A stretch of 64,000 bases of DNA from Pantoea sp. Lij88. Lineage in GTDB: Bacteria > Pseudomonadota > Gammaproteobacteria > Enterobacterales > Enterobacteriaceae. The notes under the pieces are model-generated. The model saw only the letters and a program-made list of their open reading frames with translations, was not told the DNA's origin and searched no databases. Shown piece after piece: positions 1 through 9,597 of the stretch. The stretch covers positions 620,001-684,000 of the forward strand of contig NZ_CP118269.1 in the NCBI RefSeq assembly GCF_030062155.1, written 5' to 3'. The position numbers and the translations under genes are program-made. The stretch's first letter is position 1; each line of letters begins with the position of its first letter.

Positions 1-349
1 GTAAAAATTCTGATTTTATCTCATCAGGCAAATCATCAAAGTAGAACGAAGAAAACTCTCTGTTATGAGCTCGAGAAACTTTAAAGTCTCCATTAATATA
101 GCTCAGTATGGCTCTAAGTCTTTGTTGGCCATCAACAACTGTTCTAACGTTTCTTCCAACATTCAACGTTTGAGTTATAAGAATTTTAGGTATTGGCTTT
201 CCTCTTAATATAGTATCGACTAGATAAGATTTAGCTTTCTCCGTCCAAACTGATCTTCTTTGAAACTTTGGTGAGAGTTCCAGTAGGCCTGTCTGGCTCC
301 ATTCCAAAAAATCTGAAATATTGTAAGCGCGAGTATCAAAATTCTTCAT
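1..349 (-). CDS. DUF262 domain protein, N-terminal part (runs off window)
   Basis: The first 116 codons of a minus-strand gene are visible; the 3' end lies outside the window. The translation starts MKNFDTRAYNISDFLEW and carries the DUF262 (GmrSD N-terminal, ParB/Srx-like fold) signature: PKFQRRSVW, then a KSYLVDTILRG helix, KPIPKI, and VVDGQQRLRAIL at about residue 70. In this family the DGQQR segment is the NTP-binding/hydrolysis core. Relatives include the nucleotide-sensing half of GmrSD type IV restriction enzymes and other defence-associated proteins. The ATG at 349 is chosen because an upstream ATG at 360 opens a 4-codon frame that stops and overlaps it. The gene is AT-rich, unlike the host core. 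Whether a C-terminal nuclease (DUF1524) follows cannot be seen. Confidence 0.8.
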   Translation of the reverse strand, partial: MKNFDTRAYNISDFLEWSQTGLLELSPKFQRRSVWTEKAKSYLVDTILRGKPIPKILITQTLNVGRNVRTVVDGQQRLRAILSYINGDFKVSRAHNREFSSFYFDDLPDEIKSEFL

Positions 350-547: not shown

Positions 548-1567
548 TCAACATACCGCTATCTGACTCAGCAGGTTGAACAACTTTGCTTCTGAAAAAT
601 GATCTGGTCCAAAGTGCGCATACCGCATCGTTACCTTGATATCGGTGTGCCCCAATATTCTTTGTAGCACTAGAATGTTACCGCCATTCATCATGAAATG
701 AGAAGCGAAAGTGTGGCGTAAAACATGTGTAAGCTGCCCTGCAGGTGTCTCAATGCCAGCACGTTGCATGGCCTTCCTGAAAGCTGAATAGCATGGTTTA
801 AAGAGCAATTGTGCTTTCCTGCTCGATGGAAGTTCAGCCTGTAATTTTTCACTTATCGGCACAGCTCGGTTTTTCTTCCCTTTAGTTTTCACTTAGATGA
901 TCTGACCAGCGCGGATCTGATTACCCTTCAAGCCTTCTGCCTCACTCCATCGTGCGCCGGTTGCTAAGCAGATTTTTACAATGGTAGTCAGATCTTTTGA
1001 ACGGCTATTGTCACACTTGGCAATAAGAGTTCTGATTTCTTCAATGGTGAGATACGCCATCTCAGATTCACTAATCTTAAACTCGCGCATGTTTTCTAAT
1101 GGGTTTGGCGCGGTCCATTCATCCAATCGGCGTAGCTCATTAAACATCGCCCTGAAATACGCCAACTCTAAATTCACCGTACGCAGCGTAACCATCTTCA
1201 CTCGGCTGGAGCGGGTGATCTTCCCACTTAACCGCTGCTCGCGATAAGACGCAAAAATTTTTGCGTTAAACTCGGTTGCGAGTGGGTTTCCCATAGCCTC
1301 GCAGGCGAACGCCATTGTGGTTCGCCTCTTCGCACCATCCGCCAACGTAATGCCATGCGTGTTGAACCATAATTCAACCAGCTCAATTACCCGCCGCTTA
1401 TCTGCCTTCTCTCCCAGCCAGGGCTTATCTTGAACCTGCTCTTTTACGAACTTCTCATAGGATTGTGCTTCGCCCTTAGTCGCAAACTGGCGGCGTATCC
1501 TTTTGCCGTCACGGCCATCGGGGAAAACTTGTGCCTATAACATCACGCTGGGTAATTTGTTAATCGC
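548..1567 (-). pseudogene. int: P2-type tyrosine recombinase/integrase, two in-frame stops
   Basis: Minus-strand remnant of a phage integrase. The order is an N-terminal arm-binding region (INKLPSVML, stop, AQVFPDGRDGKRIRRQF), a core-binding domain, then the catalytic domain with ATGARWSEAEGL (first Arg), HVLRHTFASHFM (HxxR), LGHTDIKVTMRYAHF (His and Tyr nucleophile). All catalytic residues remain readable. A TAG at 1535-1537 interrupts the N terminus, and a TAA at 893-895 separates GQII from VKTKGKKNRAVPIS in the same frame, where homologs usually have an uninterrupted strand. There is no frameshift at either point, so these are simple nonsense changes. The product is almost certainly non-functional unless readthrough occurs. 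It resembles P2/Fels-2-type integrases, in agreement with the P2-like tail scraps beside it. It is not adjacent to the tRNA. Confidence 0.85.
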
Positions 1568-1920: not shown

Positions 1921-2685
1921 GTGGCGTGGCTACCCGTACCGATGGCCGGTAATGATTCCGGTATGTTCCAGTTCCCGCCAGAGGGTACGCTGATTGAGGT
2001 CGGTTTTACCGGCCGACGCCCGGACAAACCGTTTGTGCGCCAGACGATGCCGGAAGGGACCAGCCTGCCGGACGTTAAGCCGGGCGAACAGCTGCAGCAG
2101 CAGCGCGCGGAAGTATCACAGCGGGTAACACAGGCGGGAGACTGGGAGCGCCAGACCGATCAGGCCATCCGTGAAACGTCCATGAACCGGGAGGTTAAAG
2201 CCGATACTGAAAAGCGTGAGCTGATCAGCAGGGAAACGACTGTGAAGGCAACGGAAAGGACCACGGTGATCGGAACGGCGTCACTGATGGCCGGAGCCAT
2301 TCAGCATGTCACTACCGGCAGTTACAGCGTGGCCGCGCAGCAGAGCCAGCTGATTACAGTGGGCGGTAATGCGGAAACAGACGTCACCGGCAGCGCGGCG
2401 ATAAAAGTCGGTCAGGCGCTGACTGAAAAAATTGGGCAGCTGCGACAGAGCATTGCCAGGACGCGTCAGGAGATTATCGCGCCGGTGGTGTGGATTGGTT
2501 CAGAGAAGATTAACGTGGCCCAGCTGATGCTCGATACCGTGGCACTCGTGCAGCAGCTGGCTGAACAGCTGGCCAGCCATACGCACCCGTCAACCGGTCA
2601 GCCCACGAACAGCAGCGCCATCGCACAGAGTGGCCAGCAGACCGCCGCACTCAGTACGAAATATTCCCCCGTCATCGGCAAATAA
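1921..2685 (+). pseudogene. Phage baseplate hub/spike protein, 5'-truncated
   Basis: A 254-codon open frame resembles gpV/gp45-type baseplate hub proteins. The start (WLPVPMAGNDSGMFQFPP, then GTLIEVGF and RPDKPFVRQTMPEG) reads as the second half of an OB-fold. A long repetitive beta-helix-like middle follows (TTVIGTASLMAGAIQHVTTG, SQLITVGGNAETDVTGSAAI), and the C terminus contains SHTHPSTGQP. A His-x-His pair binds iron at the spike tip of P2 GpV-type proteins. There is no credible start codon or ribosome site: the GTG at 1921 directly follows a stop ending the tape-measure scrap, so the N-terminal half is lost. In an intact phage the gene would not sit immediately behind the tape measure, so this is a deletion fusion. 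Exact family uncertain. Confidence 0.6.
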
Positions 2686-3297: not shown

Positions 3298-3909
3298 CTA
3301 GTTAGCTAGCTTATTTTGACTCGCTGCAGCAGATAAAACATTTGCATTAGAAGTGTAAACATTAAGGCCATCAGCTGTAGTATAGTCACCATCATCAGTA
3401 ATGATATTTAGAACTCCAGAAGACTTCATGCTTTCATGAATCATCAGGTCATAGCCATCTAATGTATTATTAGGCATTAGACTAACACATTCATTAGTCA
3501 GTTCCTCACAAACATTAATTTTTATCTGTGTGGCTAAAGACTCAACTTGCAACCAAGATGTTTTGATTTCATTTATAGCTGCATTTCTTTCATTGCTATA
3601 AATATGGCGAAAATCTTTAGTGCTAATCTTTTTACTGACAACTTTTTCGTGTATTTCTCTTTCAGACTTTTCAATAATATGAGCAAGCTCAGCCAATGAA
3701 AGTCCTGAGTGAAAAAGAGTGGCGTTTTTACCCAAGACTGAATTAATAAATTGGTTATAGCTTTGAAGGTATTGCCTATTTGAAGGTATGCCTTTGGAAT
3801 AAGTGAGCCAAAACCATACATTAGTATCTACAAAGAAACTGTCAGAACCTTTTGGTGTATATTTGTTAATATTGTAAACATTCGATAAAATTTTACCATT
3901 GAAAGCCAT
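3298..3909 (-). CDS. PIN-domain protein (predicted RNase), third gene of operon
   Basis: 203 residues. The PIN-domain acidic set is visible: FFVDTNVW (Asp28), SLAELAH (Glu74), LDGYDLMIHESM (Asp151/Asp154) and IITDDGDY (Asp172/173/175), the expected order for a metal-dependent single-strand ribonuclease fold such as VapC or FitB. It is longer than a usual VapC toxin (about 130-150 residues) because of a basic helical insert around residues 85-130. There is no small VapB-like antitoxin gene next to it. Its ATG overlaps the stop of the preceding gene by one base (TAATG), so translation is coupled to the DUF4325 protein. By inference it is the effector of the three-gene module, held in check or triggered by the ATPase and STAS-like partners. 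AT-rich, suggesting transfer. Confidence 0.8.
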   Translation of the reverse strand: MAFNGKILSNVYNINKYTPKGSDSFFVDTNVWFWLTYSKGIPSNRQYLQSYNQFINSVLGKNATLFHSGLSLAELAHIIEKSEREIHEKVVSKKISTKDFRHIYSNERNAAINEIKTSWLQVESLATQIKINVCEELTNECVSLMPNNTLDGYDLMIHESMKSSGVLNIITDDGDYTTADGLNVYTSNANVLSAAASQNKLAN

Positions 3910-4259
3910 TAGTCTGCCTCCTTGGCTTGCTGCTCAAGTATTTCATCTACAATTCGCTTGTAATCCACATTTGAATTGAAACGGCTTACATTCTCCACTA
4001 CACGATCAACAATTGAATGCCCAACAGGGTCTAGGTTTTCGAGATGCAATAAACCAGATAAATCGCTTTGTGGAAATGCATTGAGCAACTGCCCGATGCT
4101 AAAATTAAAAAAAGGTGAAGCAAACATCTTCACATTCGAGAAGTCTAACGTTACTTTCTCTCTATGGTTAATATGTGGTGCAACCATATCAAATAATTTC
4201 TGCCCGTCATCTTTTAAAATGCATCGAGGACCGATAAATTCTTTGATGGAAATATTCAT
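3909..4259 (-). CDS. STAS-like DUF4325 protein
   Basis: 116 residues from the ATG at 4259, which follows the upstream stop by one base and has a GGGAG ribosome site; a longer frame from 4304 lies inside the upstream gene and lacks one. The segment VTLDFSNVKMFASPFF with FNFSIGQLL (about residues 36-59) matches the STAS-like DUF4325 family, which has the fold of anti-sigma-factor antagonists (SpoIIAA type) and is commonly encoded beside GHKL ATPases. Ser48 sits where such proteins can be phosphorylated, but that is only positional reasoning. The C-terminal 35 residues are a charged helix (VDRVVENVSRF, IVDEILEQQAKEAD). Sandwiched between a GHKL ATPase and a PIN nuclease, it probably transmits the ATPase's state. 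Confidence 0.75.
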   Translation of the reverse strand: MNISIKEFIGPRCILKDDGQKLFDMVAPHINHREKVTLDFSNVKMFASPFFNFSIGQLLNAFPQSDLSGLLHLENLDPVGHSIVDRVVENVSRFNSNVDYKRIVDEILEQQAKEAD

Positions 4260-4260
4260 A

Positions 4261-5157
4261 TTAACTCCCTGGTTCTGATGTGAGGCGATAATACTTTTCA
4301 TCACACACTAAAGTAATGCTAAGTATAGTTCCTTTGAAGTAAAATGGTAATGTTTTATATTCTTCACCATTTGCATCCATTTTTACATAAGCATTATGAC
4401 TATATAACTCTAACTTCCCATTATTTACGCTGACCAAATCCTTAAGCAAATTAAGGCCTAAGCCCCTTGGAACCCCATTTACTGCAGCAGTTGTGTTTCC
4501 ACTAATACATGCCCACCTTAAGCATGACTCAGCAGTAATTGATTCTGCCCTAGTATCAGCGGAGAGATAACCTCTAACTTTATTCGGTATTCCCACACCA
4601 AAATCAACAACGCACAAAACTAATTCATTTCTTTGATGAAAATGTTGACCACAAGAATAGACCCCAACGGGCGAATTAGCATGCTCGAAAGAATTTGTAT
4701 ATATCTCCCAAACTTTACCAACGATAGCATCGCGCAAAGGTTCACTAACTCGGACCCAGCCTTTACCAATCCAATTCTGGGTTAAATAATCTAAAATAGA
4801 ATTAAAATCTTCATATCGATCTTCACGATACGGTATTGCATGGCCTGTATAACCACGGCCACCGTGGCCAAGCGCATTGCAAAATCCATTCTGAACCAAT
4901 GACGCTTTCACTTTGGGTGATAGCGATTCCCAGAAGAAAAAGATTGTTTTACCTTGATTTTGAAGAGAACGTACCGTTCCTCCTAAGAAAGCAACTGCAT
5001 TCGGTCTCAGAAAGTTGCAATAAGTAAAAACAAAACGAACTTGTGTTGTTCCTGAAGTCGTAGCTTGCTCAAAAATCATGAACAATCTGCAAAAGTCGCT
5101 TTCCGTGCCATTCAAGGTTGGCACCATAATGGTTAAACCTGTTTTCTCATCGAACAT
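4261..5157 (-). CDS. STAS-like/GHKL (HATPase) fusion protein, first gene of operon
   Basis: 298 residues if translation starts at the ATG at 5157 (GGGACGAAGT before it); an ATG at 5172 and a TTG at 5187 are also possible. Numbering from 5187, the N-terminal part (about 18-105) reads like a STAS-like domain: VRFVFTYCNFLRPNAVAFLGG, KTIFFFWESL, NGF. The C-terminal part is a GHKL ATPase: N box EIYTNSFEHA (161-170), G1 VVDFGVGIP (193-201), G2 PRGLGLNLLKDLV (240-252), G3 FKGTILSITL (284-293). There is no His-phosphotransfer or membrane segment, so it is cytoplasmic and more like an anti-sigma kinase or sensor ATPase than a two-component kinase. Two junctions of one base each tie it to the next two genes. 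The biological role is unknown to me. Confidence 0.75.
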   Translation of the reverse strand: MFDEKTGLTIMVPTLNGTESDFCRLFMIFEQATTSGTTQVRFVFTYCNFLRPNAVAFLGGTVRSLQNQGKTIFFFWESLSPKVKASLVQNGFCNALGHGGRGYTGHAIPYREDRYEDFNSILDYLTQNWIGKGWVRVSEPLRDAIVGKVWEIYTNSFEHANSPVGVYSCGQHFHQRNELVLCVVDFGVGIPNKVRGYLSADTRAESITAESCLRWACISGNTTAAVNGVPRGLGLNLLKDLVSVNNGKLELYSHNAYVKMDANGEEYKTLPFYFKGTILSITLVCDEKYYRLTSEPGS

Positions 5158-5320
5158 ACTTCGTCCCAGCATGTACTTTCGTTCCAATATCGCATAGTTC
5201 GTTTTGATTTTGAACCGGCAGTTGTCTGCTTAATCTGTGGAACAGAGCGATAAAAATAATGCTGAAAGACTCAAAGAAATTTCTTGGGGGACAAAAAGGG
5301 GGCAAAAGAAAATTTAATAA

Positions 5321-5365: not shown

Positions 5366-5373
5366 GAGAAATT

Positions 5374-5449
5374 TGGTGGCCCCTGCTGGGCTTGAACCAG
5401 CGACCAAGCGATTATGAGTCGCCTGCTCTAACCACTGAGCTAAGGGGCC
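5374..5449 (-). tRNA. ileX: tRNA-Ile (CAU anticodon, ileX type)
   Basis: A 76-nt cloverleaf including encoded CCA. The acceptor GGCCCCT pairs with AGGGGCC, the D arm is TAGCTCAGTGGTTAGAGCA, the anticodon loop is CTCATAA with CAU, and the T loop is GGTTCAAGCC. The sequence is essentially that of the minor tRNA-Ile2, whose C34 is converted to lysidine so that it reads AUA; it is not an elongator tRNA-Met. E. coli ileX lies beside mug and rpoD, as here, which supports the call. Its 3' end faces the accessory block, so it is the likely integration target. Confidence 0.93.
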
Positions 5450-7755: not shown

Positions 7756-9597
7756 TTAATCGTCGAGGAAGCTACGCAGCACTTCCGAACGGCTCGGATG
7801 GCGCAGTTTACGCAGAGCTTTCGCTTCAATCTGACGAATACGCTCACGCGTTACGTCGAACTGTTTGCCTACTTCTTCCAGCGTATGGTCCGTGTTCATA
7901 TCGATACCGAAACGCATGCGAAGCACTTTCGCTTCACGAGCGGTCAGGCCAGCCAGCACGTCATGGGTGGCAGAACGCAGGCTCTCTGAGGTAGCAGAAT
8001 CCAGCGGCAGCTCCAGCGTGGTGTCTTCGATGAAATCGCCCAGATGTGAATCTTCATCATCACCAATCGGCGTCTCCATAGAGATCGGCTCTTTAGCGAT
8101 TTTCAGCACTTTGCGAATTTTATCTTCCGGCATCAGCATACGCTCAGCCAGCTCTTCCGGCGTCGGTTCGCGGCCCATCTCCTGCAGCATCTGGCGCGAA
8201 ATACGGTTGAGCTTGTTGATGGTCTCAATCATATGCACCGGAATACGGATGGTACGCGCCTGGTCGGCGATAGAGCGGGTGATAGCCTGACGGATCCACC
8301 AGGTCGCATAAGTCGAGAACTTGTAACCACGGCGATATTCAAACTTATCTACCGCTTTCATCAGGCCGATATTACCTTCCTGAATCAGGTCGAGGAACTG
8401 CAGACCGCGGTTGGTATATTTCTTCGCAATCGAAATAACCAGACGCAGGTTAGCTTCCACCATCTCTTTCTTAGCGCGACGCGCTTTGGCTTCACCGATC
8501 GACATGCGACGGTTAATGTCTTTGACCTGTTCAATGGTCAGGCCGGTCTCTTCTTCGACCTGCGCCAGCTTCTGCAGGGAACGGGTCACGTCATCCTGCA
8601 CTTCCAGCAGCTTTTCAGACCACGGCTTGTTCATTGCCAGTGCGGCTTTGAACCAGGTTTCATTCGTTTCGTTGCCGGTAAACAGCGTGATGAAGTTTTT
8701 CTTCGGCATTTTGCACAGCTCAATACAGAGCTTCATGATCAGACGTTCCTGGGTACGGACACGTTCCATCATGATGCGCATGCTGCCGACCAGGTAATCG
8801 AACTGCTTCGGTACCAGGCGGAACTGCTTGAAGACGTCAGAAAGATTCTGGATTTCAGCAACGGCGGCAGCATGACTGCGACCTTTGCTTTTAATCACAG
8901 AGCGGGTCGTTTCATACTGCTTACGCAGGTCAGAAAACTTCTCGCGCGCCAGTTCCGGATCGATGGAGTTATCGTCGTCGGAGCTGTCGTCATCCTCTTC
9001 ATCTTCTTCTTCATCGTCTTTACGATCGGCTTCAGAAAGCTCAGAGCCCACGTGCGTTGCCGTTGGGGCGATATCGGCTTCTGCATTTGGATCGACAAAA
9101 CCGGTGATCAGATCGGAGAGGCGTGATTCGCCTGCTTCAACTTTGTCGTATTGATCCAGAAGATACGTAATCGCTTCAGGGTATTCGGCTACAGAACACT
9201 GAACCTGGTTGATACCGTCTTCAATACGCTTGGCGATGTCGATTTCGCCTTCGCGCGTCAGCAGTTCAACGGTACCCATTTCACGCATATACATGCGAAC
9301 CGGGTCAGTGGTGCGCCCGATTTCAGATTCAACGCTGGATAACACCTGAGCGGCAGCTTCCGCGGCATCTTCGTCAGTATCGGAGCTGTTTTCGTTCAGC
9401 ATCAGATCGTCGGCATCAGGGGCTTCTTCAACCACCTGAATACCCATGTCGTTAATCATCTGGATGATGTCTTCGATCTGATCTGAGTCGACGATATCTT
9501 CCGGCAGATGGTCATTGACCTCAGCATAGGTCAGATAGCCTTGCTCCTTACCACGGGTGACAAGAAGCTTGAGCTGTGACTGCGGGTTTTGCTCCAT
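7756..9597 (-). CDS. rpoD: RNA polymerase sigma-70 (housekeeping sigma factor)
   Basis: 613 residues, the same size as E. coli RpoD. Region 1.1 at the N terminus begins [20 protein letters not shown]. Region 1.2 contains [11 protein letters not shown]. The enterobacterial non-conserved insert has a strongly acidic run near residues 190-215. Regions 2.1-2.4 contain [20 protein letters not shown] and [12 protein letters not shown], region 3 contains [15 protein letters not shown], and region 4.2 contains [20 protein letters not shown]. It is the last gene of the macromolecular synthesis operon. The 463-base gap to dnaG is unusually long and filled with repeats. Confidence 0.98.

Follow-up and report, generated by a model that had tools for sequence, protein, structure and literature searches.

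A copy of the vapKSC system, a putative kinase-gated toxin–antitoxin module, at the end of a tRNA island in Pantoea sp. Lij88

Gene arrangement at the locus

We analyzed a stretch of 64,000 nucleotides from Pantoea sp. Lij88 (NCBI RefSeq assembly GCF_030062155.1, contig NZ_CP118269.1, positions 620,001 to 684,000; in the following called the window). Close to its start lie three intact minus-strand genes in the order kinase, STAS protein and PIN nuclease, which are a further copy of the known vapKSC system. Their description in an initial annotation, as a locked trio of STAS plus GHKL, DUF4325 and PIN proteins, was confirmed: the open reading frames (ORFs) are intact and tightly coupled, TAATATG joining the first gene to the second and TAATG the second to the third. 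The genes are as follows.

4261..5157, minus strand: vapK, STAS domain (residues about 2-98) and SpoIIAB-like GHKL serine kinase (about 104-287); putative kinase activated by single-stranded DNA (ssDNA)
3909..4259, minus strand: vapS, DUF4325 STAS-like antitoxin with phosphosite Ser48 and a tail to residue 116; PF14213 (6.9e-16), PDB 9Z7O chain A (2.1e-48)
3298..3909, minus strand: vapC, PIN ribonuclease toxin; PF01850 (3.7e-6), PDB 9Z7O chain C (6e-82)

The most likely start of vapK is predicted to be the ATG at 5157 (298 amino acids), not the TTG at 5187, because most aligned relatives start there or later; the earlier in-frame starts are at 5172 (ATG) and 5187 (TTG). Against Pfam, the first gene gave a sub-threshold HATPase_c match alone. 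Its model suggests a STAS domain followed by a SpoIIAB-like kinase: Foldseek on its own ranks CheA first, and VIA-align, in whose fold list the absence of other folds carries no meaning, ranks SpoIIAB first.

When genes 2 and 3 were searched against the PDB sequences (E up to 0.01), each returned one distinct match, the VapS and VapC chains of 9Z7O with the E-values listed above. VapS aligned over residues 3-116, including the inhibitory tail (94-116), and VapC over its whole length. For VapK, the sequence search returned no relative in the PDB. Scans with PADLOC, NCBIfam and PHROG yielded no system name for the trio, the best PADLOC match being DrmA (1.6e-5, over the ATPase region), and gene 1 matched PHROG 3364 of unknown function (1.8e-35). 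A PADLOC scan of the E. coli trio gave no match either.

Correspondence to the Escherichia system

The trio had initially been taken for an undescribed system, a name that is out of date, as vapKSC was described in Escherichia sp. E4736 by Chambers, Rani, Min, Villa and Corbett (EMBO J, 9 June 2026; PMC13373217). There, VapK is a CapK-like STAS plus GHKL kinase, VapS a STAS antitoxin and VapC a PIN protein; 289 instances were reported, 103 of them at most 10 kb from a PADLOC gene, and the VapS2VapC2 structure at 3.4 Å corresponds to the 9Z7O deposit (PMC13373217). Escherichia VapC was toxic and VapC D28A was not; the toxicity was neutralized by VapS, not by tail-deleted or S48E VapS, and the S48E phosphomimic lost binding to VapC (PMC13373217). 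The operon gave about 2-log protection against phage Bas42, which was abolished by VapC D28A, VapS S48A and VapK F54A (PMC13373217).

The window copy shares with Escherichia VapKSC the gene order, the domain make-up, VapS S48 and VapC D28 at identical numbers, the VapS C-terminal tail and an aromatic VapK residue at the aligned ssDNA site. All three residues with a published loss of phage protection upon mutation are thus present in the window, VapK F54 by alignment. It differs in its location within a decayed tRNA island and in sequence, with 57-70% protein identity to an E. coli copy. The PIN residue originally proposed for mutation, Asp28, is the very one mutated by Chambers et al. (PMC13373217).

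Transferred to the window, the proposed mechanism would run as follows. At rest, VapS would bind and block the VapC PIN ribonuclease in a 2:2 complex. Upon phage infection or DNA damage, ssDNA would bind VapK between its STAS and GHKL domains, and VapK would then phosphorylate VapS on Ser48. Phosphorylated VapS would release VapC, which may cut RNA, probably tRNA or rRNA, leading to a growth stop of the infected cell. For the Escherichia relative and the window copy alike, ssDNA as the trigger, VapK acting directly on VapS as its kinase, and the RNA that is cut are inferred, and relatedness to the former suggests that the latter is active. The initial idea of a SpoIIAB/SpoIIAA-type partner switch that releases a ribonuclease as anti-phage defense matches the model supported experimentally for the Escherichia relative (PMC13373217). 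It left the roles unassigned: the PIN protein is directly inhibited by the antitoxin VapS (gene 2), and the kinase (gene 1) is proposed to release the toxin through phosphorylation of VapS.

Conservation of functional residues

Residue conservation was counted over the fetched sequences, window included. In VapK, E151, N155, H159, D185, G187, G232 and G234 were invariant in all 62 sequences, and G189 and T277 were each kept in 60. VapS position 48 was a serine in 63 and a threonine in 5 of 69 sequences, with one gap. The conserved set of VapC comprises D28, N30, E74, D151, D154, D173 and D175; among 65 sequences D28 was kept in 64, with one gap, and E74, D151 and D154 in every one. At the ssDNA site of VapK, 54 of 62 sequences have phenylalanine and four tryptophan; the equivalent residue of CapK is W68 (PMC13373217). 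The window residue F49 aligns with residue 54 of a 302-amino-acid E. coli ORF counted from its first start.

Distribution, synteny and selection

With a profile of gene 1 we fetched 65 loci other than the window from GTDB genomes, of which 57 show the order kinase, STAS protein, PIN. Three of the remaining eight are cut by the contig end, three have room and contain VapK fragments alone (L062, L068, L070), L052 combines a whole VapK with a missing VapS and a PIN fragment, and in L009 the contig ends inside VapS. Other effectors behind VapK-VapS were looked for in these 65 loci and none was found. Each gene was hit by a single ORF in 51 loci (the VapK ORF being shorter than 280 amino acids in six), and genes 2 and 3 overlap by 1 or 4 bases in 41 of these, with starts assigned mechanically. 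According to the record titles, the hosts include Proteobacteria, Nitrospirota, Chlorobi, Desulfobacterium, Planctomycetes, Cyanobacteria and the archaeon Methanospirillum, in which the VapK match is an ORF of 198 amino acids.

The system is sporadic, because just 3 of 147 near-relative genomes, the window's own included, carry VapK. It had been suggested that PIN homologs found consistently without the two partners would speak against a functional trio. This is not the pattern in the window's own phylum: a search of 398 of its genomes that started from the PIN gene identified five PIN loci, four of them (again including the window's own) with both partners and one, L115, with neither; some cyanobacterial PIN genes keep VapS alone.

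Compared with its counterpart in another genome of the same genus (G016), the window copy is 96.3% (VapK), 98.3% (VapS) and 94.6% (VapC) identical in protein. Synonymous differences dominate, with ratios of nonsynonymous to synonymous rates (dN/dS) of 0.068, 0.030 and 0.084, respectively. The corresponding protein identities to E. coli JNE25-001 are 70%, 67% and 57%.

A side observation concerns the Streptococcus phage Javan172, where an unannotated PIN ORF (L006:9248-9778; E 3e-32 with a wider profile) completes a vapKSC near an integrase in a Gram-positive prophage. This ORF rules out Javan172 as a vapKSC lacking the PIN gene, as its annotation would have it. MT837343 has a PIN ORF too.

VapS-VapC pairs without an adjacent kinase

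Starting from the PIN gene, we also searched 292 cyanobacterial genomes, 214 genomes of one cyanobacterial order and 218 genomes of the phylum of G150, and pooled the results with the loci fetched earlier. Left out were L052 and L073 (without VapS), 47 of 149 rows that repeated a VapC already present, and PIN matches of fewer than 160 model positions. A kinase was called full when its ORFs together matched at least 240 VapK model positions; 3 of the 72 full kinases comprise more than one ORF. This yielded 100 distinct VapS-VapC pairs, 72 with a full upstream VapK, 9 with a partial one and 19 with none.

Position 48 of VapS is a serine or threonine in 72/72 pairs with a full kinase and a serine in 9/9 with a partial one. 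In the 19 kinase-less pairs it is serine or threonine in nine and proline, alanine or tryptophan in ten. Treating related sequences as independent, Fisher's test gave p = 1.4e-8 (72/0 versus 9/10), and among close relatives alone p = 0.0014 (64/0 versus 6/3). A VapC tree covering 98 pairs (71 full, 9 partial, 18 none) contains eight changes of kinase state, yet just four independent pairs on well-supported branches. The phosphosite moved with the kinase state in a mean of 1.7 of these four and the opposite way in none (sign test, median p = 0.5). Because this test, which considers ancestry, is not significant, the correlation is not established; it is suggestive, a lead alone.

Ten of the 19 kinase-less pairs fall in a distant PIN group, which has kinase-bearing members too (9 of its 19 rows). 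The whole acidic set of VapC is kept in 17 of 18 kinase-less pairs checked. In 19 genomes with kinase-less or fragment-kinase pairs, a VapK search found no match in 14; among the other five were two previously detected fragments, a fragment located on a different contig (G991) and two weak matches in long frames. Less than 900 nt of upstream sequence is present in L116, L186 and L197, the last of these being the G991 locus with the fragment elsewhere.

The cyanobacterial pairs without an adjacent vapK are L095, L116, L124, L126, L133, L171, L175, L179 and L180. L095 keeps S48, and its genome (G166) carries VapK elsewhere, at L052. In L116, L124 and L180, close kinase-less members, the serine is replaced by proline or alanine and VapS has an N-terminally longer frame, with uncertain start codons. 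Distant DUF4325 plus PIN pairs without an adjacent kinase are L131, L185-L189, L191, L195 and L197, with tandem copies in L185 and probably L191; this distant group is possibly a separate toxin–antitoxin family.

We consider it an even question whether VapS-VapC is an independent toxin–antitoxin core with the ssDNA-sensing kinase as an accessory. In this view there would be an ungated, unphosphorylatable "vapSC" class, mostly in cyanobacteria and in part arranged in tandem, that keeps the ribonuclease active site while the VapS phosphosite can vary (P, A, W), in some members together with a longer VapS frame. The words "without vapK" and "cyanobacter" do not occur in the main text of PMC13373217, and the sections of it that were consulted make no mention of a kinase-less class.

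The tRNA island and the prophage-end slot

The operon is the cargo at one end of an island, whose other features in and next to the window are the following.

5372..5420, no strand: island border, a direct repeat of 49 bp formed by the 3' end region of the tRNA gene; the other copy lies outside the window at C3:618389-618437
5374..5449, minus strand: tRNA gene, anticodon CAU, probable integration target
1921..2685, plus strand: C-terminal part of a phage baseplate protein, convergent with vapC, an arrangement shared with the E. coli prophage; 63% identical over residues 310-566 of a 567-amino-acid E. coli protein
548..1345, minus strand: phage integrase, split into two ORFs
1..349, minus strand: start of a DUF262/GmrSD_N gene (352 amino acids, runs beyond the window); PADLOC NsnA 8.5e-29, PD-T4-2_A 3.5e-19

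The island spans C3:618389-625420 between exact 49-bp repeats that lie 6,983 bp apart, start to start. It contains a 208-amino-acid ORF, the DUF262 gene, the split integrase, the truncated baseplate gene and vapKSC. The DUF262 gene, which is of defense type, and the 208-amino-acid ORF, which has no match in Pfam or PADLOC, are a second cargo. The matching island of G016 lies between two near-copies of this repeat, one of 52 bp (94%) and one of 49 bp (98%); its integrase frame is open (397 amino acids), and Septu genes PtuA (2.7e-146) and PtuB (2.8e-87) stand in place of the DUF262 pair. The left flank of G016 matches the window's genome. On the right, as far as the sequence was fetched, the flank does not match; the next ORF there resembles another integrase by eye, and no tRNA was called in the stretch. 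We also looked for an empty site in 40 genomes of the same genus, a weak test, as the full left flank occurred solely in the window's own genome and fragments of it in three others.

In the window, E. coli and Rahnella, vapKSC adjoins a baseplate gene at a prophage end. The window fragment is 63% identical to the E. coli JNE25-001 protein that converges on vapC. Among 75 loci (L003-L077), the same neighbor occurs in E. coli JNE25-001, Rahnella bruchi (L007, part of the protein) and an IMG/VR contig (L073, vapC cut by the contig end). In E. coli, 47 of 5,426 genomes contain this baseplate gene and 2 of 5,426 a vapKSC match.

We read the slot next to the baseplate gene in 12 of the other 45 E. 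coli genomes and scanned 10 cargo proteins from 9 loci with PADLOC, leaving out three loci, all with acetyltransferases, and several small ORFs. Five proteins in four loci had a match of 0.001 or better, namely AbiU-like, HEC-04-like ATPase, ShosT-like, ShosA-like and PDC-S64. Five proteins in five loci had none, including a 470-amino-acid PIN protein, an acetyltransferase and an acyltransferase. Therefore, from matches in four loci and none in five, the slot often, not always, holds defense-type cargo. The 470-amino-acid PIN protein (L214:2752-4164, E. coli mip270_05) is a candidate single-gene defense, and stand-alone "serine acetyltransferase" genes recur as slot cargo in L215, L216, L222 and L224 (E. 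coli).

Comparison with known switches and alternative explanations

VapKSC resembles several known systems in part. As in type II VapBC modules, a small antitoxin holds a PIN ribonuclease toxin; the window antitoxin differs as a STAS protein gated by a kinase, and a VapB-type antitoxin is absent upstream of the window PIN gene, where the DUF4325 STAS protein is encoded instead. VapS leaves the active-site Mg in place, unlike a VapBC antitoxin (PMC13373217). CapK-CapS likewise pairs a STAS plus GHKL kinase with a STAS substrate phosphorylated on a serine; it differs in the N-terminal helix-turn-helix (HTH) of CapK and the C-terminal winged HTH of CapS (PMC13373217), neither of which was found in the window proteins, and the window target is a toxin, not a promoter. 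In contrast to SpoIIAB-SpoIIAA, the switch releases a PIN nuclease, a STAS domain is part of the kinase itself and no sigma factor is encoded within the operon. An ORF at 7756-9597, outside the island, is presumably rpoD.

We are highly confident that the window locus is vapKSC, a kinase-gated toxin–antitoxin module against phages, which forms the cargo at one end of a decayed prophage or tRNA island. Several points weigh against this reading. The aromatic residue at the ssDNA site is not universal, with arginine, serine, tyrosine and isoleucine once each (4/62). The equivalence of the published F54 to the window F49 is itself inferred, from our alignment and from how the residues of a single E. 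coli ORF are numbered. VapK was insoluble and VapS phosphorylation could not be followed in PMC13373217; therefore, the kinase activity and its activation by ssDNA lack a direct demonstration there. Finally, the island looks decayed, with its split integrase and truncated baseplate gene, hence expression of vapKSC is putative.

The last point leads to the alternative that fares best, an inactive remnant in which the operon is real and has ceased to be expressed in this decayed island. We consider this improbable: a split integrase and a truncated phage gene do lie in the same island, but the three ORFs are open, every tested motif is present and the differences from the closely similar G016 copy are dominated by synonymous ones.

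A little less probable still is a plain VapS-VapC addiction module that maintains the island, with phage defense as a side effect and an incidental kinase. Such a role would fit the location on a mobile island and the fact that several cyanobacteria retain kinase-less VapS-VapC pairs whose VapC still has its active-site set (17 of 18 pairs). However, the window VapK is intact and under purifying selection, its catalytic motif is invariant in relatives from several phyla, and mutation of VapK abolishes phage protection in Escherichia (PMC13373217).

A transcriptional switch of the CapK/CapS type, in which genes 1 and 2 control expression and the PIN gene is mere regulated cargo, is very unlikely: the kinase and STAS families are shared and CapKS lies upstream of immune operons (PMC13373217), but gene 1 opens with STAS at residue 2 of 298, lacking the N-terminal HTH of CapK, gene 2 has 116 amino acids with DUF4325 as its sole Pfam match and no match to a DNA-binding domain, and the products of genes 2 and 3 align almost end to end with the VapS and VapC chains of the solved complex.

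Implications

Read as vapKSC, the window locus is a clean, independent instance of a newly described defense system, and its position indicates that in Enterobacterales this system moves around as interchangeable cargo of prophage ends. If confirmed, the kinase-less pairs would make the published mechanism testable by evolution: loss of the kinase should leave the phosphosite open to change, with the antitoxin contact and the active site of the toxin retained.
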